Positions 3,060-16,364 of a stretch of 64,000 nt of DNA are shown piece by piece (the first letter of the stretch is position 1; each line of letters starts with the position of its first letter). A program made the position numbers and the translations under genes. Source of the stretch: Marinilactibacillus piezotolerans (GTDB lineage Bacteria; Bacillota; Bacilli; Lactobacillales; Carnobacteriaceae_A); the NCBI RefSeq assembly GCF_900169305.1, contig NZ_FWDP01000002.1, positions 62,001 to 126,000 of the forward strand, in the 5' to 3' direction. The notes beneath the pieces were generated by a model. The model was not told where the DNA came from and searched no databases. It saw nothing but the letters and a program-made list of their open reading frames with translations.

Positions 3060-4229
3060 TTAATCAAAAATATGGGTAACAAATTCTGTTTCTTCTGATT
3101 CTCTTTCTAAGAAAGATTCAATCCCGTTGAGTGATTCAACTTTAATTTCAATCGGCAGATTCTCTGGGAGATACGTATTCGCAGCCTGGTTCAAATATTG
3201 AGTAAAGGCAATAATTTCCCCTTTCCCATAAAACTGCGTCATAATATCGATCTGAAGAGTCACCAGATTGTCTTCAATATAATGTGCGACGCCTGTAACG
3301 CCACTCAAGTTCGGGAAAAAATTTTCTACTTCAGATTTGAAATTGGCAAAAGCATTCCCTTCTGCACTTTCCATTCCTTCAATGGGAAAAACTTTTCTAT
3401 CTTCATTGATGGCTGTCCAGTCTGATACGGTTGACGCACCATTCTCGCTTACTCCTTCAGATATATACGTTCCGCCGGCAAAGTCATCCCTCGTCGACTG
3501 CTCGTACAAACCGATCATAATAGGTACTGTCCCTAACCCTTCGATCTCACGCATTCTGGAAACCACTTCATTACCGATCTGCTGTCCTTCTTCAATCAGC
3601 TCTTCAGTAGAAATGTCCTGCTGTTGGCCTTCTCCGAAATAATCTACAGAGTTCAACGCCAATCCAACACTGACTCCTGCAAGTTCCATACCATTCTCAG
3701 TCTCTACATAGTAGTCTTGCTCTAGTATAGAGCTGAGATAAATGGGCTCTCTCGTCTCGGGATCCGTACTGCCGTTATCTCGTGGATTCAGTCCCAGATT
3801 TTCTGCGCCATCTTCAATTTCTTCTTCTGTCAATTCTCGGTCTCTTCTTAACCAGCTGCTGACAAGATTCGCCGGTAAAAACTGCCCTTCTTGGAAGTAG
3901 TGATCTTCAGTTGAAAAATAGCGATGAGATATCCGCATTAAATCTTCTTCAAACGTCTTAATGTTCACGTTTGAGTTGAGTACAAGGGTTATTCCCCGGT
4001 TCTTGCTCGGAGCATAACTTCCTTCTTCAGTAATCAGCGGTCTATAATAATTGGAGTCGATCTGATTCTCTATAGTAACTGTATCATTGGCCTGTCCTGA
4101 CTGCGTACCGTTCTCTCCGTTTTGCTCTGCCGTTTCTTCTCCTGTATTTTCTGAGTTCGGCAAACTCTCGCAAGCCGTCAGAAACAGTACTGCACCGGCT
4201 AAGCTGGACAGTATCCATTTTTTACGCAT
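3060..4229 (-). CDS. camS: CamS family sex-pheromone precursor lipoprotein
   Basis: The protein is 389 aa with a short lipoprotein signal peptide: MRKK, a hydrophobic stretch, then the lipobox LTAC with Cys20 as lipidation site. An acidic, Asn/Gln/Thr-rich linker (about residues 22-50) follows, then the long CamS domain. CamS homologues are surface lipoproteins in Firmicutes. In Staphylococcus and Enterococcus the cleaved signal peptide of CamS gives the peptide pheromone cAM373; the function of the protein body is not well established. The location downstream of pcrA-ligA and upstream of gatCAB matches B. subtilis yerH, which supports orthology. The ribosome-binding site AGAGAGG precedes the ATG. 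The residues just before Cys20 (VLFLTA) are the part a pheromone would come from. Confidence 0.88.
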   Translation of the reverse strand: MRKKWILSSLAGAVLFLTACESLPNSENTGEETAEQNGENGTQSGQANDTVTIENQIDSNYYRPLITEEGSYAPSKNRGITLVLNSNVNIKTFEEDLMRISHRYFSTEDHYFQEGQFLPANLVSSWLRRDRELTEEEIEDGAENLGLNPRDNGSTDPETREPIYLSSILEQDYYVETENGMELAGVSVGLALNSVDYFGEGQQQDISTEELIEEGQQIGNEVVSRMREIEGLGTVPIMIGLYEQSTRDDFAGGTYISEGVSENGASTVSDWTAINEDRKVFPIEGMESAEGNAFANFKSEVENFFPNLSGVTGVAHYIEDNLVTLQIDIMTQFYGKGEIIAFTQYLNQAANTYLPENLPIEIKVESLNGIESFLERESEETEFVTHIFD

Positions 4230-4251: not shown

Positions 4252-6291
<2,040 letters not shown>

Positions 6292-6298
6292 TCAGTGA

Positions 6299-8533
6299 TT
6301 AAACTTTTTCGATTGGTGCAAAAGTTGCCAGCAGCGGTTTAATACCAATTCCCGGAAAAGCGATATCCAGCTGCAGATCTTGTCCAGTTCCGCTGATTTT
6401 AACGACCGTTCCGACGCCCCAAGCTTTATGGTTCGCTTTGTCTCCTACATTCCAGTCCAGTGTTTCTGCGCCACTGTTTCCGGTTGGATGAGCTGTAACG
6501 GTTCTGACTTTCTTGTTGGTTTCTGTCCGATCGTTTGAACGATTCCCGAAACCTCTGTTGATTCCATTAGAAAAAGGTCTCAAGCTGTTAGATTCAATGC
6601 TTTCAAGCAGCGTTTCATCAATTTCACCGATAAATCTTGACGGCAGATTCGTCTGCGTTTTTCCATAAAGCGTCCGATTCAAAGAGTTGGTAATATACAG
6701 CTTGTGCTCAGCTCTTGTAATCCCTACATAAGCTAGTCGTCTTTCTTCTTCTAACTCATTTTCGTCCATCTGTGCTCTGGACAATGGGAATACCCCTTCT
6801 TCCATCCCAATTAAAAATACAACCGGAAATTCAAGTCCTTTAGCAGCATGCAGCGTCATAAGCGTCATCTCACTTGTCGGCTCTTCTTCTACTGAATCCA
6901 AATCAGACAACAATGCCAAATCTGTCAAGAACGAAATCAGACTTTTATCTTCTTGGGGGTCATCATCAAACTGCTGGGTTACAGATAAGAATTCATTAAT
7001 ATTTTCCACTCTAGCCTCTGACTCTAAAGTACGCTCCTTTTTCAAAGAGGGTAAGTAATCAGACTTCTCTAGAATTTGTTCAGTTAGTTCCGTAACTGTC
7101 AAGTACTCAGCCATTTTTCTGAAGTCTTGAATCATTGTCGCAAATGTTTCCAGTTTCCCTGCCGCACGTCCAGAAATATTTGTGATTTGTGCATTGAGAG
7201 CTGCTTCATATAAAGACCAGCCCATTTCTTCCGCTGCCAGCAGCAGTTTATCCACTGAACTAGTACCGATTCCTCGTTTAGGAACATTGACAATTCGAGT
7301 GAAACTTAAGTTGTCAGCCGGATTGGCAATGAGTGTAAGATAAGCCAGAATATCTTTGATTTCTTTACGGTCATAGAATTTATGTCCGCCGACCATACGA
7401 TAAGGTATATTGGTTTTGATCAGCGTTTCTTCCATCACCCTTGACTGGGCATTGGTTCGATATAAGACGGCGAAGTCTCCATATTTCCGTTCCGGATGCT
7501 GTTCCATTTCTTCTTTGACCTGCTGTACGATATATCTGGATTCTTCGTGTTCATTTCCAGCACGGTAATACACGATTTTAGGTCCTTCATGATTGTCTGT
7601 CCACAGACTCTTTTCTTTCCGATTCAAGTTATTGGAAATTACATGATTCGCAGCTTGTAAAATATTCTGGGTGGAACGATAATTCTGCTCTAAGAAAATG
7701 ACTTTTGCTTCAGGATAATCCTTTTCAAAATTCAAAATATTTTCCATGTCTGCGCCGCGCCAGCCATAAATACTCTGATCGGCGTCTCCAACCACACAAA
7801 TATTGCGCAGACGGTCTGCCAGCAACTGTACCAGTCTGTATTGTGCATGGTTTGTATCTTGATACTCATCTACATGGATATACTGGAATTTGACTTGGTA
7901 CGTTTTCAAGACGTCAGGGTGCTCTTCAAATAAACGCACCGTCAGCATGATCAGATCATCAAAGTCAACGGCTTGTGCATTTCTCAGTTCCCGCTGATAA
8001 TCGTCATAACAGTCCGCTACGATTTTACTGAAGTAATCATTGGCTTGTGCTCGAAAGGCTGCTTCGTTCTGCAGTTTATTTTTTGCATTGCTGATTTCTG
8101 CAAGGATTGCTCGTGGATTGTATTTTTTAGGATCAATGTTCTGTCTCTTTAATATACGTTTCATCAGTGTTTGCTGTTCGCCTGGATCACTGATTGTAAA
8201 CGAACGACTATATCCGATCTGATCGGCTTCTCTACGAAGTATTCTCACACACATCGAGTGAAAAGTAGAGACCCAGACATCACTTCCGCCTTGCTGAACA
8301 AGTTTTGAGACCCGTTCTTTCATTTCTGCAGCCGCTTTGTTCGTGAAGGTGATGGCTAGTATATTCCATGGATTTACATTTTGTTCTTCTATCAAGTAAG
8401 AAATTCGATGAGTCAATACTCTCGTTTTACCTGAACCTGCTCCTGCCATGATTAAAAGCGGACCTTCTGTGTGAGCCGCCGCTTCTTTTTGTTTGGGATT
8501 CATCCCGCTTAATATATCTTTACGCAGTACCAA
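6299..8533 (-). CDS. pcrA: ATP-dependent DNA helicase PcrA (UvrD/Rep family)
   Basis: PcrA is an essential 3'-5' SF1A helicase in Gram-positives, acting in repair, plasmid rolling-circle replication and removal of RecA. It is about 744 aa. Visible motifs: Walker A AGAGSGKT, motif Ia FTNKAAAEMKERV, motif II VDEYQDTN, motif III GDADQSIYGWRGAD, QNYRST (IV), and VAHRLS-like replaced by the usual TLHAAKGLEF (V) and EERRLAYVGITRA (VI). The C-terminal tail (VGDKANHKAWGVGTVVKISG) is the Tudor-like RNA-polymerase-contacting domain of PcrA. The start is probably the TTG at 8533 (RBS AAAGGA 8 nt upstream); an in-frame ATG at 8542 sits directly on the RBS and is less likely. pcrB, found upstream in Bacillus, is missing. 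Confidence 0.96.
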   Translation of the reverse strand: MVLRKDILSGMNPKQKEAAAHTEGPLLIMAGAGSGKTRVLTHRISYLIEEQNVNPWNILAITFTNKAAAEMKERVSKLVQQGGSDVWVSTFHSMCVRILRREADQIGYSRSFTISDPGEQQTLMKRILKRQNIDPKKYNPRAILAEISNAKNKLQNEAAFRAQANDYFSKIVADCYDDYQRELRNAQAVDFDDLIMLTVRLFEEHPDVLKTYQVKFQYIHVDEYQDTNHAQYRLVQLLADRLRNICVVGDADQSIYGWRGADMENILNFEKDYPEAKVIFLEQNYRSTQNILQAANHVISNNLNRKEKSLWTDNHEGPKIVYYRAGNEHEESRYIVQQVKEEMEQHPERKYGDFAVLYRTNAQSRVMEETLIKTNIPYRMVGGHKFYDRKEIKDILAYLTLIANPADNLSFTRIVNVPKRGIGTSSVDKLLLAAEEMGWSLYEAALNAQITNISGRAAGKLETFATMIQDFRKMAEYLTVTELTEQILEKSDYLPSLKKERTLESEARVENINEFLSVTQQFDDDPQEDKSLISFLTDLALLSDLDSVEEEPTSEMTLMTLHAAKGLEFPVVFLIGMEEGVFPLSRAQMDENELEEERRLAYVGITRAEHKLYITNSLNRTLYGKTQTNLPSRFIGEIDETLLESIESNSLRPFSNGINRGFGNRSNDRTETNKKVRTVTAHPTGNSGAETLDWNVGDKANHKAWGVGTVVKISGTGQDLQLDIAFPGIGIKPLLATFAPIEKV

Positions 8534-8681
8534 TATTGTCATCCTTTCAGGTAGTCATACATTGTCTTATTATACAGAAAAAGCTGCCTGCTTTCCATAG
8601 AACAAACCGCTCAGCTTTGCAATTCTGTTAAACTTCCTTTAACAAAATTCAACCTTGATTTACGCTGCTTTTTTAAGGAGC

Positions 8682-8863: not shown

Positions 8864-9520
8864 CTATTCATTCATACTTTGTATAATATTCAAGAGCAGC
8901 TGGTTCAACATAATTCTGATTTCTCTTCGAGCATAAGGATAGTTGGGTACTTCAAGATACTCAAGCAGCTGGTTATAGTGTTTTAACTTAGTCAACCGGC
9001 TTTTAGATAGTACGTTTTGGATTTTCCCCTCTTCTGGCAGCATCTCTCTAACTGCACTGAGGATCATGGAACGACTATATCGGTTAGCTTCAAGCTCCAG
9101 TAATGCTTCCCAAAACCGCCACTCCTCCTGCTCAAAGTCCATTGCCTCTGCTCTGCTGAACTCATTCATATTTTGCAGCAGCTGCTTTAAAAGATGCAGC
9201 TCCAGTTGCTTTTCCGTCTTTTCGAGTTTGAAAAAATAATGGTTCGTCATTAATTCAATAAATTCTACTCTTTCTTGAAAAGCCTTGGAATCAATTTTCA
9301 AGGGCAGTATTTTTGCCCCTTTGTATGGTTCTATTTCAATTAGCTGGTCTTCTGCCAATTGAAGAAAAGCATTACGAATCGGCGTTCGGCTCATTTCTAA
9401 TTGTTTTGCAACATCCTGCTCGCGAATGTGCTTTTGCGGAAGCCATTCTTTACTTACTATTTTTTGTTTGATAAAGCGGTAAGCTTCTTGTTCTCTTTTC
9501 TTTGTTTTCGACATTTTCAT
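8864..9520 (-). CDS. GntR family transcriptional regulator (FadR/FCD-like)
   Basis: The 218-aa protein has a GntR-type winged helix at residues about 10-75 (EAYRFIKQKIVSKEWLP, then the helix-turn-helix EQDVAKQLEMSRTPIRNAFLQLAEDQLIEIEPYKGAKI). A helical C-terminal effector/dimer domain follows, resembling the FCD class in size and helix content. I cannot see a clear set of metal-binding His/Asp residues of classical FCD domains, so the ligand is unknown. It lies 79 nt downstream of the purK-like gene on the same strand, with its own candidate promoter. That promoter's -10 lies inside an inverted repeat (9536-9571), suggesting autoregulation. Its likely targets are itself and perhaps the purK-like and UPF0316 genes, but this is inference from position. 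Confidence 0.8.
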   Translation of the reverse strand: MKMSKTKKREQEAYRFIKQKIVSKEWLPQKHIREQDVAKQLEMSRTPIRNAFLQLAEDQLIEIEPYKGAKILPLKIDSKAFQERVEFIELMTNHYFFKLEKTEKQLELHLLKQLLQNMNEFSRAEAMDFEQEEWRFWEALLELEANRYSRSMILSAVREMLPEEGKIQNVLSKSRLTKLKHYNQLLEYLEVPNYPYARREIRIMLNQLLLNIIQSMNE

Positions 9521-9599: not shown

Positions 9600-10718
9600 T
9601 TACATTCCGATATCCGACAGCAGCATCAGCAGTTCATTGACATTATCTGTCGGGATTGTTACATGTCCTTTTTCTGTATCTGGATCGGATGGATCACTCT
9701 GATAAAATGCAAACTTCCAGTCCTGCTGGATTCGCGCCTGAGTAAAAGCCTGATCTAATTGATCATAGTTGAAAAATCTCATAACGGCTGGTCCTGGATG
9801 GGTCACCTTTTCTGGTAGCGGCCATCCACAGACAGCTCTTATGTGTGCATCAAATTGAGACAAGCTTCCCCAGTCAGTCGTGTAGTGATAAGCTTGATGA
9901 GGGTGTCCAACCAGTTCGTTTACATAGAGAGAACCTGTCGAAGTTGTAAACAGTTCAAGAGCAATAACACCTTGAAAATCAATGTGCTCAGCTGTATTTC
10001 TGGCGATTCTCTTTACTTCTTCGCTGATTTCAGGGTTGATCCGTGCAGGAGCAACCGTTTGAAAGAAACGGTCTTTACGATACATCATTTCCGTTACTGG
10101 ATAAGTAATGATCTTCCCTGATGCATCTTTTGCAATGGCGATACAAAGTTCCCGTTCAAATGGAATCCATGCTTCCAGAACACTGGCTCCTGAGTCCACC
10201 AATTCTTTTGTTTTCACAATGTCTTCTTCTCCATACAAAACAACATGTTCCTTGTACCGTTCATCTGTCCGATTTGCTTTCAGCACACAGGGATAACCAA
10301 TACTTTGTACGGCTTCTTTTACATCGTCTATCGAAACAATCGTGGCAAATGGTGCAATATTTATACTGATTGACTCTAGAAAAGCTTTTTGAAGCACTCT
10401 GTCCTGAGAAATGGAGAGCAGATCCTCTCCTTGCGGTACTGGCAGAGTTCTTTTCATCAGCCTTAAGAAATCTGAATGGAATCCTTCCGTTTCATAGATG
10501 ACAATATCGCTTTTCATTGCGATATCCTGAAAGGCCTTCTCATTGTTCAGATCCGCTCTTAAATGCCAGTCTGCAATACTGCTGGCTGAACACATTGGAT
10601 CCGGATCCAATATCCCTACCTTATAACCTGTTTTTTTTGCAGAAAGTGCCAGCAGCCTAGCGACACTTCCGCCTCCAATAATGCCGATGGTTTTTCCAGG
10701 TTGAATCCATTCACTCAT
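9600..10718 (-). CDS. Divergent PurK-like ATP-grasp protein
   Basis: This 372-aa protein is clearly homologous to PurK (N5-carboxyaminoimidazole ribonucleotide synthase) over its whole length. It has an N-terminal Rossmann-like domain (TIGIIGGGSVARLLALSAKKTGYKVGILDPD), a central ATP-grasp domain, and a C-terminal domain (AHIRAVCGWPLP). Key differences: the glycine-rich ATP lid, RGGYDGKGQ in B. subtilis PurK, reads RTDERYKEH here (residues 150-158), and the active-site RPHNSGH reads HPHQAYH (272-278). The ATP-grasp Lys (VLK) and the Glu/Glu-Asn metal ligands (ALELF, VNEL) are kept. So it is probably an enzyme with altered substrate, not a simple PurK; no purE or other pur gene is nearby. The frame is intact. 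The start is the ATG at 10718 with GGGGAG 8 nt upstream; a TTG 6 nt earlier is less likely. It lies 65 nt after the UPF0316 gene, probably co-transcribed with it. Confidence 0.75.
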   Translation of the reverse strand: MSEWIQPGKTIGIIGGGSVARLLALSAKKTGYKVGILDPDPMCSASSIADWHLRADLNNEKAFQDIAMKSDIVIYETEGFHSDFLRLMKRTLPVPQGEDLLSISQDRVLQKAFLESISINIAPFATIVSIDDVKEAVQSIGYPCVLKANRTDERYKEHVVLYGEEDIVKTKELVDSGASVLEAWIPFERELCIAIAKDASGKIITYPVTEMMYRKDRFFQTVAPARINPEISEEVKRIARNTAEHIDFQGVIALELFTTSTGSLYVNELVGHPHQAYHYTTDWGSLSQFDAHIRAVCGWPLPEKVTHPGPAVMRFFNYDQLDQAFTQARIQQDWKFAFYQSDPSDPDTEKGHVTIPTDNVNELLMLLSDIGM

Positions 10719-10783
10719 GATCAAGACTCCCCTTTAATGATTCTAATATACAAACAATTCATTACGCTGATCAAGCTCATAGC

Positions 10784-11329
10784 TTATGTTCGATTGGCTA
10801 ACTTGTTTTTCTTGATTCGCTTCGTCCAGAACCCGCCATTGATATAACGCGGCTCATAAGAAATGATAAAAGCTTTTGTTTCGATTTCATGAATCTTAAC
10901 ATATAAGTCTCTTTCATTTGAACGTGGAGTCAGAATCTCTAGTACGTATCGGTCGCCTTCTTTTCCATAAGCTTGAGTAATCGTGACACCGTATCCGTGA
11001 TTTCTTAATTTCTCTGCAATTTCCCAGCCTCTATCCGGAACAATTGTCGTAACAAGAATATATCCAAGTGCCAGATAATTTTCGATCTTCATTCCGGCAA
11101 AAATCCCGACACCGAATCCTAATGCATATACAGCTACGTTGACAACATTATCAAGGTTGTCCAGTACAAGCCCCAGACCTACTACATAGATTGCAATTTC
11201 TACCATTGCAATAAAAGGAGCAATTTTTTGATATCCCTTCATGGTCAGCATCATCCGCAATGTATTCAGCGTTACATATACAACATTGATACAAAAAATA
11301 GTTACTAACATAGTCCAATCTAATTCCAC
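10784..11329 (-). CDS. UPF0316 / DUF2179 family membrane protein (YebE-like)
   Basis: The 181-aa protein has three hydrophobic helices in the first about 90 residues (WTMLVTIFCINVVYV, APFIAMVEIAIYVVGLGLVL, VVNVAVYALGFGVGIFAG), followed by a cytoplasmic DUF2179-type domain (VTTIVPDRGWEIAEKLRNHGYGVTITQAYGKEGDRYVLEILTPR, shown here only as a family match). This is the UPF0316 architecture; the function is unknown. B. subtilis YebE, a member, is encoded just upstream of purE-purK, and here the gene precedes a purK-like gene, so the neighbourhood is conserved. The start is GTG with AAGGAGAG about 9 nt upstream; the TTT-rich stretch 11340-11378 presumably holds its promoter. Confidence 0.85.
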   Translation of the reverse strand: MELDWTMLVTIFCINVVYVTLNTLRMMLTMKGYQKIAPFIAMVEIAIYVVGLGLVLDNLDNVVNVAVYALGFGVGIFAGMKIENYLALGYILVTTIVPDRGWEIAEKLRNHGYGVTITQAYGKEGDRYVLEILTPRSNERDLYVKIHEIETKAFIISYEPRYINGGFWTKRIKKNKLANRT

Positions 11330-11421: not shown

Positions 11422-12759
11422 TTATTCCCACTCTTCCAAAGGATCTTCCTTGAAAGTCTTCTCTACTCTCAGGGTCAAAATTCTTGACCCTTCCTGTGAA
11501 TCAACTCGAATCAGCAAATCTTCCAGTTTCAAGAAAGCTTCATCATCTTTACTCGGTACACTGCCGAATTCTGTAATAAAGTATCCGGCAATTGTATCCA
11601 CGTCTTCCGACTCAATCGTTGTCCCGAAGAAGTCATTAAATTTTTCGATGGGCGCTGCACCTTCGACAATAAACTCTTGATCGTTTATCTGTTCGATCAA
11701 CTTGTAACTCTCATCATACTCATCATCGATTTCTCCAACGATCTCTTCTAACAGATCTTCCAATGTAACCAGTCCAACGACTCCGCCATATTCATCGTTC
11801 AATATAGCCATTTGATTTTGAGTCCGTTTTAATTGGAAAATCAAATCATCAATATTAATGGTTTCAGGAACGAAAAGTGCTTCATTGCTGATTTCTTTCA
11901 GATCAATTTCATATAGCGGCTTTTCTTTCGATGCTTTTAATAAGTTTTTAACATGTACGATCCCAATAATATTGTCTTTGTCCTCATAATAAAGCGGAAC
12001 TCTAGAATGCGGTGTATTCAGCATTTCATCGATGTTATCCTTATTATCATCTTCATAGTCCAGCATAAAAGAATCTGTACGGGGAACCATTACTTCTCGA
12101 GCAATCTTGTTATCCAGCGATAAGACGCCTTTCAACATAGAAAATTCTTCTAAGTCAATGATTTCATGATGGTGGCTTTGTTCCAGGAACATACGAAAGT
12201 CATCTCGAGTCATTGTCTCTTCATGGCTGTTGAAATCAAATGGTAATATTCGTTTTAAACCATTTGTAATGGTCCTCAATACCCAAACGATCGGTATAAA
12301 TATTTTATGGACAAAAAGGGCAAGCCCTACAAGCATCAGAGCAGTCTGATCTGGATTCTGAGCGGCTGCTGCTTTTGGAAGCTGTTCTCCGAACACAAGG
12401 ACGAAACAAGCGACCAGCAACGTAATGAGAACCATACTTATGGCATCTGCATAGACGAAATCCCCCAGAATAGTTGCAAATTCATCGGTATAGTAGAAAG
12501 AAGCAACAGCACTGCTGAGCAAAGCTGTCAGCGTTAAGATGGTTCGAACTGCTATCAGATAATCATCCGATCTCTCCAGCAGTTTCAGCACTTTCTTCGC
12601 TCTCTTATTACCTTCTATCGACAATTCGATGATTCTTGTCTGATTCATAGATAAAAGTGCAACTTCAATCGCAGCAAATACCCCATAGACAAGTGTTAAA
12701 CATACAATGAGTGAAACATGCCCAATTAAGGGCTGGATACTCCCAGGATCAGCATTCAT
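11422..12759 (-). CDS. CNNM/HlyC-CorC family membrane protein with CBS pair
   Basis: The protein of about 445 aa has, in order, a DUF21/CNNM transmembrane domain (four hydrophobic segments, residues about 10-190, including FAAIEVALLSMNQTR and FGEQLPKAAAAQNP), a tandem CBS-domain pair (VMVPRTDSFMLD to LEDLLEEIVGEI) and a C-terminal CorC_HlyC domain (FIVEGAAPIEKFNDFF onward). Members are Mg2+ transporters or exporters in some bacteria; the old name hemolysin is misleading. The FGEQLPK motif is the conserved FGE(I/Q)xPK of the DUF21 domain. An open frame continues 30 codons upstream, but that segment is lysine-rich and unlike the family, and a GGAG-containing ribosome-binding region precedes the ATG at 12759. 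Downstream of a PBP gene, ending in its own hairpin. Confidence 0.87.
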   Translation of the reverse strand: MNADPGSIQPLIGHVSLIVCLTLVYGVFAAIEVALLSMNQTRIIELSIEGNKRAKKVLKLLERSDDYLIAVRTILTLTALLSSAVASFYYTDEFATILGDFVYADAISMVLITLLVACFVLVFGEQLPKAAAAQNPDQTALMLVGLALFVHKIFIPIVWVLRTITNGLKRILPFDFNSHEETMTRDDFRMFLEQSHHHEIIDLEEFSMLKGVLSLDNKIAREVMVPRTDSFMLDYEDDNKDNIDEMLNTPHSRVPLYYEDKDNIIGIVHVKNLLKASKEKPLYEIDLKEISNEALFVPETINIDDLIFQLKRTQNQMAILNDEYGGVVGLVTLEDLLEEIVGEIDDEYDESYKLIEQINDQEFIVEGAAPIEKFNDFFGTTIESEDVDTIAGYFITEFGSVPSKDDEAFLKLEDLLIRVDSQEGSRILTLRVEKTFKEDPLEEWE

Positions 12760-12897
12760 TCTCTTCTTTTTCTCCTTTTTTTCGTAAACTTTTTTAGGTT
12801 GTTTTATCAAAATCAAAGCCACTATATCACATATCAGTCTGTGTAACAATAGACTGAGTGTTTTGTGCTTTTTTGTACATTTTTACTTGTTCCGCTT

Positions 12898-14952
12898 TTA
12901 CTCTGCTCCTTTTAATTCAGGCAGTATCGGTAAGAAGCGGTCAACGACTTCACCACTTGCTTTCCCTTCCATAAATCCTAAGAAACTAAATGAATCATCT
13001 TGTGCATCAAACGCGTAAACAAAACCATTTGTGACAATCTCACCATCCTGATTGATCTCAGCCGTTCCTGTCTTCGCACCGATTGGGAATGGTACAGTAG
13101 AGAAAGGATGTGCAGTTCCATTTTCGTCTGCGACTGCATTTACTAAAGCTTCTCTGACGATCTGAGCTGATTCCGCTGTTACTGGAGTCAACTGATTTGG
13201 TTCTGTTTCTTCAAGTAAAAGCGTCGGGAAAGTCATGGAGCCTTGATTTACAACAGACGAGTAAAAAGATATCTGATGGATCGGACTCATTAATGTTTCT
13301 CCTTGTCCATAAGCTGTATCTGCTAATAAAGCTGTCTGACTGATACTGCCATCGTTAGAGATTTGGGCAGGCTGCATGCTGATTGGCAGATTCATGCTTG
13401 CGCCGAATGGAAATTGAGTCAACCCTTCTAAAAAGGTATCAGCGCCCATTTCCAATGCTTCCATTGCAAAGTAAATATTATCAGAATACGTGATTGCCGC
13501 TTGCAGATCGACTTCTATGACCGCATCGCTCACTCTTGTAATGTCGTGATTCCCTAAAGAGCCATCTTCTGGCTGCCAGTCCAGACCTTCAATTGTGTGA
13601 GTTTCTTCCGGTACAATCGTTCCTGCATCAAGTCCGATCATTGAAGTTAGTATTTTAAATGTAGATCCAGGAGCGTATCTTGAAGAATAACGTGTCAAGA
13701 AAGGACTGTCTGGATTATCAGCATAAGCAGCGTACTGTTCAGCAGATATTCCTTGCGTAAATAACTGCGGATCATAAGAAGGAGAGCTTGCTGCCACCAG
13801 CAGTTCACCTGATGCAGGATCCATCACAACAGCTGAACCAGGTTCACCATTGAACTGGTCGTAGGCTGCTTGCTGTAAATTCATATCGATCGTCAAACGG
13901 ATATTCTCACCATTCTGAGCTTCAGACTCTATCAAAACTGTTTTAGTTTCGCCAGCCTCTGATTCGATGTAAATACGTCCTCCTTTGCTGCCGCGCAGTC
14001 TGTCATCCAGAGCTGCTTCAAGACCTGTTTTTCCAACTACGTCTCCAGTAATCAGAGTAGGATTAATCTCAATATCTTCAGCAGTAACTTCACCGACATA
14101 GCCAGTCAAATGTGCTGCTGCTTCTCCAAGAGGGTACATACGCGCTTCTGTTTGAGTATATCTAACACCTGTCAGTTCAGGTCTATCCCCTTCTTGGACA
14201 ACTGTTATAGGGACCAGGCTTTCCTCTGTTACCCAAGACTGTTCCAGCAGTGTTTCCAATTCAGAGACTTCTGTTTCAAATGCTTCAGCAATGGCTGCTA
14301 TGTTTTCTTGTCGTTCATTTCCTTCACCCAGCATGGCCGGGTATAACCCGGCTTGCCACGCACTGCCGTTTCCTGCCAGCATATTGCCGTTGCGATCGTT
14401 TATATTACCACGGTCTCCTTCTTCTGAAGCGATTCTGACGGTATCGCCCGCTGCCATATCAGGAAAAATCAGTGATGGTTGCCAATCGACAAACATCTCT
14501 TCTTCCGTTTCAGTGAAAGTAGTCTGATATTCCAGATCTTCTAACTTACCCAGTGACGTATCCATTGACAAGGTATACGAAAATTCATACTGATCTGTTT
14601 CTTCGTTTAAAGTTAATGTTGACTGAGTTTCCATTAAATTTCCTGCACCGATCGCAGAAAAAATCGTTTGATACCGTTCTCCGATTTCTTCTCGTGTATT
14701 CGCAGAATCACTGATTGAGGATTCTGATAATAATGGTACAAAACTCTCCATATCCACTTGTCTTAGTGCTGCTAAGTATTCTTCTGTTAAATCTTCAGCT
14801 TGTGCCTGACGTCTTTGGGCTGCTTGACTGGACTGCCAGCTTTGATATCCAAAGTATCCGCCTACAGCAACTGCGATGACCAACACAATGATTAATGGAA
14901 TCAGCCATACTTTCTTACTTTTATTAGAAGAATGATTAGGTGTTCTTTTCAT
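12898..14952 (-). CDS. Class B penicillin-binding protein of the MecA/PBP5 (low-affinity) type
   Basis: This is a D,D-transpeptidase that crosslinks peptidoglycan outside the membrane. The 684-aa protein has a single N-terminal transmembrane anchor (VWLIPLIIVLVIAVAVGGYFGY), an NTF2-like MecA_N domain (about 45-160), a PBP dimerisation domain (RGNINDRNGNML to about 340) and a C-terminal transpeptidase. Active-site motifs: Ser430 in STFK, S490-D-N, and Lys627 in KTGTA. The MecA_N domain marks the PBP2a/PBP5fm/PBP3 (Bacillus PbpC) group, whose members are often poorly acylated by beta-lactams. The ribosome-binding site AGGGGG lies close to the ATG. It lies 87 nt below the TIM-barrel gene in a cell-wall cluster with a carboxypeptidase and a glucosaminidase. 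Resistance cannot be inferred from sequence alone. Confidence 0.9.
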   Translation of the reverse strand: MKRTPNHSSNKSKKVWLIPLIIVLVIAVAVGGYFGYQSWQSSQAAQRRQAQAEDLTEEYLAALRQVDMESFVPLLSESSISDSANTREEIGERYQTIFSAIGAGNLMETQSTLTLNEETDQYEFSYTLSMDTSLGKLEDLEYQTTFTETEEEMFVDWQPSLIFPDMAAGDTVRIASEEGDRGNINDRNGNMLAGNGSAWQAGLYPAMLGEGNERQENIAAIAEAFETEVSELETLLEQSWVTEESLVPITVVQEGDRPELTGVRYTQTEARMYPLGEAAAHLTGYVGEVTAEDIEINPTLITGDVVGKTGLEAALDDRLRGSKGGRIYIESEAGETKTVLIESEAQNGENIRLTIDMNLQQAAYDQFNGEPGSAVVMDPASGELLVAASSPSYDPQLFTQGISAEQYAAYADNPDSPFLTRYSSRYAPGSTFKILTSMIGLDAGTIVPEETHTIEGLDWQPEDGSLGNHDITRVSDAVIEVDLQAAITYSDNIYFAMEALEMGADTFLEGLTQFPFGASMNLPISMQPAQISNDGSISQTALLADTAYGQGETLMSPIHQISFYSSVVNQGSMTFPTLLLEETEPNQLTPVTAESAQIVREALVNAVADENGTAHPFSTVPFPIGAKTGTAEINQDGEIVTNGFVYAFDAQDDSFSFLGFMEGKASGEVVDRFLPILPELKGAE

Positions 14953-15039: not shown

Positions 15040-15729
15040 TTACTGTTCAAAGTTGTCTTTTTCTTTTTCTCTATATTTATCCATTTTTTTACTGAATAAC
15101 TTCCCATTTGAAGGAGGCGTGTATGTAATAGCATTAGCACCCGCTTCAATCGTTTCTTTTATACTCTCTTCTGTAGGACCGCCCGTTGCAATAATTGGGA
15201 GTTTCGGATATTTTTGTCGGATTTCTCTCACTAAATCTGCTGTGTTCCCTGCATTTGAGACATTTAAAATATCTACTCCAGCTGCTAATCGTTCATCGAT
15301 ATCAGTGTATTCCGAAACAATTGTCATAATGATCGGGATATCGACGACTTCATTGATGGCTTCGATCGTATCAACCGGAGTAGGCGCATTAACAACGACC
15401 GCAAGGCAGCCGTGCGATTCAGCAAACAGCGCCATATTAGCTGAACGTGGCCCCTGAGTCGTACCGCCTCCCACTCCCGCCATTACTGGAATTGTCGAGA
15501 CAGAAGTGATAGCTTCAATAATAGCTGGGTGAGGTGTAAAGGGGTATACTGCCATGATCGCATCTGCATTATTGTTCATAATAATGGCAATATCCGTTGT
15601 AAACAGAAGCGCTTTGAATCGTTTGCCATTAATATTGATTCCGCTGGCTTCTCTGATCACATCCGGAACAGCAATATAGTCTTTACGCAGATTAGTCTGA
15701 ACGAGCGGCATCTCTTTTTTCTTTGTCAT
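15040..15729 (-). CDS. TIM-barrel protein of unknown function (putative hydrolase family)
   Basis: The 229-aa protein has repeating beta/alpha units: IAIIMNNNADAIMAVYPF, IPVMAGVGGGTTQG, CLAVVVNAPTPVDTIEAI, IPIIMTIV, VDILNVSNAG, LPIIATGGPTEESIKETIEAGANAITYTPP (given here as the phosphate-binding end of a barrel). The GVGGGTTQGPRSANMALFAES and IATGGPTEES loops suggest binding of a phosphorylated ligand at the C-terminal end of the barrel. Similar proteins in Lactobacillales are annotated as hydrolase, without proof of function; I do not assign one. The ATG overlaps the TGA of the GH73 gene (ATGA), so the two are coupled. AGAGGG lies about 9 nt upstream. Confidence 0.6.
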   Translation of the reverse strand: MTKKKEMPLVQTNLRKDYIAVPDVIREASGININGKRFKALLFTTDIAIIMNNNADAIMAVYPFTPHPAIIEAITSVSTIPVMAGVGGGTTQGPRSANMALFAESHGCLAVVVNAPTPVDTIEAINEVVDIPIIMTIVSEYTDIDERLAAGVDILNVSNAGNTADLVREIRQKYPKLPIIATGGPTEESIKETIEAGANAITYTPPSNGKLFSKKMDKYREKEKDNFEQ

Positions 15730-16364
15730 GTATCTGTACCCTCTTTTATTCTATTTTCTCGATCATATTGATCTAAATCGTATTCTTCAATCAATGAGAT
15801 GACCTTTTCGGGATACTCAGGATCTGTCGCATAGCCTGCCGTTTTCAATGCCTCTGCTGATGCTTCATATGTCGGCGCTTCGATCACTTCTTGATATAAA
15901 TTTTCGTCCCATTCTGTCCCATCTCTTAGCAAATCAGCATAATCTTCCATAGATGCTTTCATTGAATCATAGGTTCTGAATTCTGTTTCAATCTCAATCC
16001 ATTCATTGTTCTCAAATTCTTTAGTCACATATTTTTCTTCATTACCATACCCTTTGATTCCATAATAATTCTGTTCTTCTTGTGCTAACTCGCTTTTCCC
16101 CCAGTTTGATTCCAAAATAGCTTGGGCAATTGCTACACTGGGCCGTATGCCATGTGTCGATTCCAGTAAAATGGCATTTTCAGCAGCTTTCTCAATGAAT
16201 TGCTGCTCATAGCTAATGAATACGCCTTCTGGTCTATCCAGCAATTGCTTTGCCATAAAGGCGATTGAAAACACAAAAAAGATGATTGCGATTAATCCGA
16301 TTTTCAACATCAGCATAAGCGGATGCTGCTTGCGGTTACGCTTTTTTCTCTTTTTTTTCGGCAC
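15726..16364 (-). CDS. Membrane-anchored GH73 endo-beta-N-acetylglucosaminidase
   Basis: The 212-aa protein starts with a very basic cytoplasmic tail (MPKKKRKKRNRK), one transmembrane helix (LMLMLKIGLIAIIFFVFSIAFMA), then an extracellular GH73 (LytG/FlgJ-like) glucosaminidase domain. The catalytic Glu is in AIAQAILESNWGKSELA, and the YYGIKGY and FRTYDSMKASMEDYADLL motifs are typical of the family. It would cleave GlcNAc-MurNAc bonds in peptidoglycan. It carries no cell-wall repeat domain, so it acts close to the membrane. The start is GTG with AAGGAG about 9-10 nt upstream. It is between the VanY gene (33 nt upstream) and the TIM-barrel gene (4-nt overlap), in one operon. Confidence 0.88.
   Translation of the reverse strand: MPKKKRKKRNRKQHPLMLMLKIGLIAIIFFVFSIAFMAKQLLDRPEGVFISYEQQFIEKAAENAILLESTHGIRPSVAIAQAILESNWGKSELAQEEQNYYGIKGYGNEEKYVTKEFENNEWIEIETEFRTYDSMKASMEDYADLLRDGTEWDENLYQEVIEAPTYEASAEALKTAGYATDPEYPEKVISLIEEYDLDQYDRENRIKEGTDT

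Follow-up and report, generated by a model that had tools for sequence, protein, structure and literature searches.

A PurK-like gene with both motifs replaced lies at the pcrA-ligA site

The stretch of DNA analyzed here (the window) comprises 64,000 nucleotides of the Marinilactibacillus piezotolerans genome. The gene at 9600..10718, on the (-) strand like all the genes of the window described below, encodes a PurK-like protein (PKL) of 372 aa, with its ATG at 10718 and its stop at 9600. A ribosome-binding-like box read from the sequence, AAAGGGGAG (10727..10735, also (-)), precedes the ATG. Upstream, profile matches and neighbourhoods identified genes for a DUF5698/DUF2179 protein (10784..11329), which precedes an intact purE-purK in relatives, a CNNM/CorC-type transporter (11422..12849) and a glucosaminidase (15726..16364). 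Between the latter two are a penicillin-binding protein (PBP) of the PBP4(5) family (12898..14952; NF051842, 787 bits, over cut-off) and a barrel-type protein without a curated family, recognized from neighbourhoods (15040..15729). Downstream lie a GntR-family regulator (8864..9520; Pfam and neighbourhoods), pcrA (6299..8542; TIGR01073, 1103 bits, over cut-off), ligA (4252..6270; family match) and a lipoprotein gene (3060..4229) that has no family match, is conserved in the block and is presumably camS. The barrel-type protein is 60-90% identical across the families having it at the site and matches no Pfam or NCBIfam model at cut-off. The GntR regulator evolves much faster than the DUF5698 protein (54-65% vs 88-90% identity between the window and congeners). 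No Rfam family was found in the window at gathering score.

PKL is homologous to PurK over its full length (phmmer, 232 bits across residues 2-363 of the solved PurK 4dlk) and shows 38% identity to the genome's own PurK. It scores over the Pfam gathering score for ATP-grasp (PF02222, 118 bits vs 27; PF22660, 61.4 vs 27) and under the cut-off of all seven curated PurK models (TIGR01161, 232 vs 318.4; NF004675, 323.6 vs 375). Like PurT and D-Ala-D-Ala ligase, PKL has an ATP-grasp domain, and it matches these other ATP-grasp ligases weakly (89 bits for PurT-type, 32 bits for Ddl), but it matches PurK far better and no partner genes were recognized. The structure predicted for PKL with three named congeners (4 rows) had a mean pLDDT of 40; the fold of PKL is predicted from sequence homology alone.

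The first-pass annotation had claimed that both substrate motifs of PurK are replaced without any length change, and this proved exact when PKL was aligned with the genome's own true PurK. Residues 147-158 read KANRTDERYKEH in place of KTIRGGYDGKGQ, with the lid RGGYDGKGQ replaced by RTDERYKEH (residues 150-158, 10245..10271), and the substrate motif RPHNSGH is replaced by HPHQAYH (residues 272-278, 9885..9905), both gap-free. The same alignment bore out the claim that the lysine and the metal-binding Glu/Asn residues stay: K147 (10278..10280), E255, N267 and E268 are kept, as are E182 and E190. Other losses lie beyond the two motifs. The Q of GGGQLG is S18, the F of YEFEN is T77, and the C-terminal K, R and K of PurK are S341, T348 and E349. 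The four congeners (76-81% identity) carry matching replacements, TDERYKEH or TDERYRQH together with GHPHQA[YF]H, and the lid TDER[YF][KR] is found in 12 of the 17 rows of the window's own clade (L017-L033), with variants in the other five. As judged from these sequences, the motif replacement, repeated in four congeners, exceeds chance variation.

A true purK is encoded elsewhere in the genome

A true purK with purE elsewhere in the genome, which had been proposed as a check, was found on another contig as a purE-purK-purB set (421 bits for purK, at C2:79878-80936; all three genes over cut-off). This contig also carries purL, about 17 kb from the true purK. purE has a single match in the genome, which adjoins the true purK, not PKL. 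A group II intron D1-D4 RNA match lies just upstream of this set (L069:11924-12083). Both copies, PKL and the true purK, are present in 5/5 Marinilactibacillus genomes. All 27 genomes of the window's family had a match; 26 have a window-type copy, called by identity or by place, and one (G018) has the true purK only. pcrA was within the stretch in all 16 other family genomes with PKL whose neighbourhood was read. purE was missing in 12 of the 27 family genomes and purL over cut-off in 13. PKL is present in all 12 family genomes without purE, and therefore persists without the pathway.

These results bear on whether PKL could still be an N5-CAIR synthetase with divergent motifs. Its whole-length homology and its identity to the genome's own PurK agree with this, but the proposed base and the AIR contacts are replaced (see below), all seven PurK models score it below cut-off, a true purK with purE coexists with it, and it is kept where purE is missing. 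We regard this explanation as extremely unlikely. The view that PKL is not a PurK was upheld, by residues as well as by setting.

Motif integrity follows purE across the order

We read the neighbourhoods of 121 PurK-like proteins of the order (Lactobacillales), not counting two rows that are broken or cut and one duplicate. L062 and L166, being broken or cut, are missing from the trees, and L071 repeats L051. The genomes were selected for two-copy cases and examples per family and are a non-random sample. Among PurKs with purE in the stretch, 64/65 keep both motifs exactly, and the remaining one (L180 of genome G033) differs by one residue, APRPHNSAH. Without purE in the stretch, 0/56 copies keep either motif; these copies, labelled decayed, come from seven families (f1, f2, f3, f5, f6, f8 and f9). 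The DNA pattern for GYDG(K/H)GQ gave a consistent picture at whole-genome level. It occurs exactly once in 9/9 purE-positive controls, some of them with two PurK-like genes, and is absent in 52/53 purE-less genomes having a PurK-like match, the exception being G071 of family f4 (C12:19167-19187).

The first-pass annotation had allowed that the two motifs might be equally variable among proven PurK enzymes. They are not: in the lid the glycines, Y, D and Q, and in the second motif R, P, H and N, are invariant among 94 intact PurKs. This invariance is partly circular for the 65 order-level rows, which both motifs defined as intact; the 29 PurKs from other parts of the class are free of that circularity. 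The proven PurKs in this comparison were E. coli PurK and one solved PurK alignment.

Among 295 genomes of the order, 271 matched the PKL profile (ordinary PurK is picked up by it as well) and 222 had purE. A PurK-like match was present in 53 of the 73 genomes without purE and in none of the other 20; purE absence was called with one model, and missing contigs could hide purE. Four genomes (G030, G086, G252 and G295) have purE over cut-off and no PurK-like profile match at E 1e-15. In an 85% complete genome with purE (G025:C20:21301-21753), the decayed PurK-like copy L064 was the only one found. In family f4 the profile search of the order genomes found no second copy, and of the 12 genomes listed for genus g17 (family f9), 11 had no match to the profile at all. 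Because of these cases PKL can be lost, unless it has diverged past the reach of the profile. Nearly all copies read have full-length frames. Two copies are broken: L062 (genome G023, 6971-8087) is in two pieces in different frames, and G046:C1:2152035-2153128 consists of two separate short frames. Second PurK-like copies were also seen in other genomes of the class (L232-L239), with 25-30% identity to PurK and without the tested neighbours in 8/8 regions read, and on these grounds were set aside as a different paralogue.

PKL descends in place from the PurK of a purine operon

PKL occupies the interval in which relatives hold a purE-purK-purB operon, between DUF5698 and GntR-pcrA-ligA. The fullest arrangement in situ was found in G055 (family f2), where DUF5698 is followed by purE-purK-purB (L099), then by purQ-purL-purF-purM-purN-purH-purD (L182), each of these seven over its curated cut-off, and by the GntR regulator after purD, with pcrA starting 2.2 kb past GntR. 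The order DUF5698-purE-purK-purB was also found in other families of the order (L107, L108 and L261-L263) and in one genome of another order of the class (L240). For 54 of the 56 decayed copies, the stretch read includes a marker of the site (pcrA in 41, glucosaminidase in 50), and the other two, L257 and L258, show purB only. Computation establishes PKL as the in-place descendant of the PurK of the ancestral operon between DUF5698 and GntR-pcrA-ligA.

The neighbours were also considered as functional partners. GntR was in the stretch read for 31 of the 56 decayed copies, DUF5698 for 17 and purB for 14, and none is universal; GntR, purB, DUF5698 and pcrA were each rejected as an obligate partner of PKL, each being absent from the stretch read for some copies. 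GntR was also rejected as a PKL-specific partner, since in G055 it also comes after the purine operon that holds the intact in-situ copy. Among the neighbours tested, no pathway gene was recognized as travelling with PKL.

The motifs were lost several times

We constructed a rooted tree of 78 rows with the motif columns removed, in which PurKs from elsewhere in the class served as the root, the ordinary PurKs were thinned and 19 long-branch loci were named for exclusion (L062 was already out). All in-situ-labelled rows (24 intact, 38 decayed) formed one clade, with support of 98/94. Of the purE-adjoining rows, 28 were labelled in-situ, 14 of them by a site marker (L247 by the PBP match alone) and the other 14, L180 included, by kinship, mostly on 6-kb stretches. 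L180 was counted as intact in the rooted tree and in the purE count.

The decayed label needs seven changes on the rooted tree, and at least five are forced by the starred branches. Assuming that the motifs were never regained, there were seven separate losses, counted as all-decayed clades, in the best tree and six to seven in the bootstrap trees. Three losses are clearly independent: that of G281 beside intact G246 (100/98), that of genus g53 within family f3, and that of genus g21 beside near-intact G033 (100/99). The suggestion that PKL may define an undescribed subfamily found no support as a general reading, as equivalent copies arose several times separately on the rooted tree.

In the larger tree, nearly all off-site purE-purK sets grouped apart from the rest (37 rows, SH-aLRT 99). 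In the rooted motif-free tree, nine off-site purK rows were outside the in-situ clade and did not form one group. These sets fit a replacement by transferred operons. The purKs of G009 (family f1, L070) and G276 (family f5, L172) are only about 0.07 changes per site apart, and such near-identity across two families probably reflects a recent lateral transfer of the purine operon.

ATP contacts are kept and AIR contacts are lost

To assign residues, roles were taken from the part of a structural study available to us (PMC3261824) and mapped via the aligned E. coli PurK; in that part of the study, R80, K120 and E153 contact ATP, Q11, K307, R313 and K314 contact AIR, and D127 is the proposed base. 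PKL keeps the ATP-contact residues as R107, K147 and E182. The position of the base in the GGYDG lid is R154, and the AIR-contact positions are S18, S341, T348 and E349, the K307 column being hand-assigned as the added E. coli row is gapped there. The metal-binding Glu pair of E. coli PurK, which we take to be E226 and E238, is kept in PKL as E255 and E268. In sum, PKL shares with PurK (TIGR01161; PDB 4dlk, 3q2o, 3orq and 1b6s) the full-length homology, the ATP contacts, the metal ligands and the gene position of the in-situ purK, and differs from it in the lid, the base, the AIR contacts and RPHNSGH, in the missing adjoining purE and in scoring below the curated cut-off.

The same division was found across the decayed copies. 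The three ATP contacts are kept in 51/56, with K/R exchange allowed, while AIR contact Q11 is kept in 4/56, base D127 in 6/56, R313-K314 in 4/56 and both lid glycines in 2/56. In the intact PurKs these residues and the metal pair are all present in 94/94, except Q11 in 85 (9 rows are cut there); D127 and the lid overlap the motif defining these rows as intact, and Q11 and R313-K314 are independent of it. The metal Glu/Asp pair remains in 20/56 decayed copies and in none of those from families f3 (3), f6 (1) and f9 (11). The window's own clade (genera g1 and g2) is more complete, with K111, K147, E182, E190, E255, N267 and E268 kept in 8/8 rows.

Pseudoenzymes are proteins kept after the loss of catalysis. 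PKL appears similar to them in keeping the fold and the nucleotide pocket without the catalytic residues, but its type of loss recurs several times within a single bacterial order and almost always at the same chromosomal site. The one ATP-grasp paper found on the subject concerns TTLL12 (PMC3520985). Of the residues for ATP-grasp catalysis, the window's copy has lost the lid and the base and retained the metal pair.

The metal ligands bear on the proposal that PKL is a new ATP-grasp ligase, which would activate a different carboxylate or amine with ATP and Mg. The seven residues from K111 to E268 kept throughout the window's clade, the fairly conserved replaced lid of that clade and the Pfam ATP-grasp score all speak for such an enzyme. 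However, the metal pair is mostly lost in the whole set and the protein persists all the same, the lids are wholly different between lineages, and no accompanying pathway gene was recognized among the tested neighbours. Because of the separate origins and the loss of most metal pairs, one shared new ATP-grasp reaction cannot cover the whole set, so the proposal lacks support as a general reading. For the window's clade, where metal ligands and ATP contacts are kept in 8/8 rows, a new substrate is still possible, and the main rival explanation for that clade is a new ATP-grasp reaction. Overall we consider a new ligase a possible but rather unlikely explanation.

A second set of constraints was also indicated. 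Seven positions (D106, D132, G177, I185, E234, R237 and Y265), drawn from 139 that vary among ordinary PurKs (29 from the class, 37 off-site), show at least 75% conservation among the decayed copies. Their mean frequency is 0.93 in 27 in-situ intact PurKs vs 0.57 in the rest, and 0/20000 permutations were as high; the test counts L180 among 57 decayed rows. This would fit a second function that predates the loss of catalysis, and shared ancestry with a common structural background could explain part or all of the signal.

These positions also bear on whether the role differs by lineage, through repeated unrelated reuse of a handy fold and not one ancestral second function. Polyphyly and the entirely different lid replacements would agree with such reuse, but the three ATP contacts and the in-situ-specific positions are common to most lineages, and 54/56 copies are at the same site. 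We consider separate roles improbable.

PKL is under purifying selection

The ratio dN/dS (NG86) of PKL was 0.054 in Marinilactibacillus, from the one pair with measurable dS (the other nine pairs were saturated), 0.075-0.123 in 15 pairs of genus g30 in family f2, and 0.023 in one pair of genus g36 in family f5. For the true purK it was 0.11-0.20 in 10 pairs of g30 and 0.07 in one pair of g36; in Marinilactibacillus, where 8/10 pairs gave a ratio, it was 0.024-0.085, with 0.55 in one near-identical pair. purB and pcrA in g30 gave 0.022-0.037, a stronger constraint than on PKL. PKL is maintained as a protein under purifying selection, and the first-pass statement that the replaced motifs are not decay agrees with its intact 372-aa frame and a dN/dS of 0.02-0.12.

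The same values weigh on the explanation that PKL is a relic without function at the protein level, retained by chance or because its frame supports expression of downstream purB or pcrA. PKL is always a former PurK, purB is in the stretch for a quarter of the copies (14/56), two copies are broken and some lineages have lost the gene, as expected of a relic. But its dN/dS is similar to or below that of the true purK in the same genera, nearly all copies are full-length and the in-situ-specific positions are conserved over long branches. A functionless relic is already unlikely, and we give it very little weight.

A second role may explain the retention of PKL

The explanation we favour, and hold to be somewhat probable, is that PKL is an ATP-binding protein that no longer makes N5-CAIR and has been retained for a second role needing the fold and a bound adenine nucleotide. 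The in-situ purine pathway would have disappeared or given way to a purE-purK set elsewhere; the in-situ PurK would then no longer have been selected for N5-CAIR synthesis; and PKL would have been retained for a role that needs the fold and the adenine nucleotide and not PurK chemistry. A hidden second job is probable because relatives lost the reaction several separate times and the protein is still under selection. PKL presumably still binds ATP or ADP, and would most likely act as a nucleotide-responsive scaffold or regulator via protein contacts. In the part of a study available to us, E. coli PurK is described as a central node of purine-enzyme contacts, whose disturbance lowers the adenylate and guanylate energy charge (PMC10912719). 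By analogy, this contact hub may be a relevant precedent for a scaffold role of PKL.

Several observations stand against a second role. PKL is dispensable in places (family f4, most of genus g17 in f9, G018, 20/73 purE-less genomes and the broken copies of G046 and G023), and its constraint in g30 is weaker than that on pcrA and purB. The ATP-contact residues may persist for structural reasons, and the metal ligands kept in the window's clade would be unneeded by a purely non-catalytic protein.

A broader form of the second-role explanation is that the in-situ PurK of Lactobacillales already had a second, non-catalytic ATP-dependent function, and that this function alone was kept six or seven times, giving hidden PurK-derived nucleotide sensors at the pcrA-ligA site. 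We regard this as plausible, though short of probable. If true, the still-catalytic in-situ PurK would be a moonlighting protein today, and one could take the sensors for a purine enzyme. The reaction was lost repeatedly and the protein retained, which amounts to a natural separation-of-function experiment that exposes two sets of constraints on one enzyme. A second role of PurK is directly testable, with the kept ATP contacts, the lost AIR contacts and the seven lineage-specific positions as leads. In addition, genomes of the purine-auxotroph type carry a clear PurK homologue, and pathway prediction based only on homology could err in many members of the order.

PurK copies named in the literature

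In the open-licence literature we recognized no account of a Lactobacillales PurK relic or paralogue located at pcrA, and found no paper on purK-2 with Enterococcus. In the part of one paper available to us, a Lactobacillus casei PurK_2 is tabulated with PurD, PurH and PurC (PMC6201924), and is presumably a true enzyme. The available part of another names an Enterococcus faecalis gene purK-1, EF_1786 (PMC12502612), and a second purK copy may already bear a name in the annotation of that genome.
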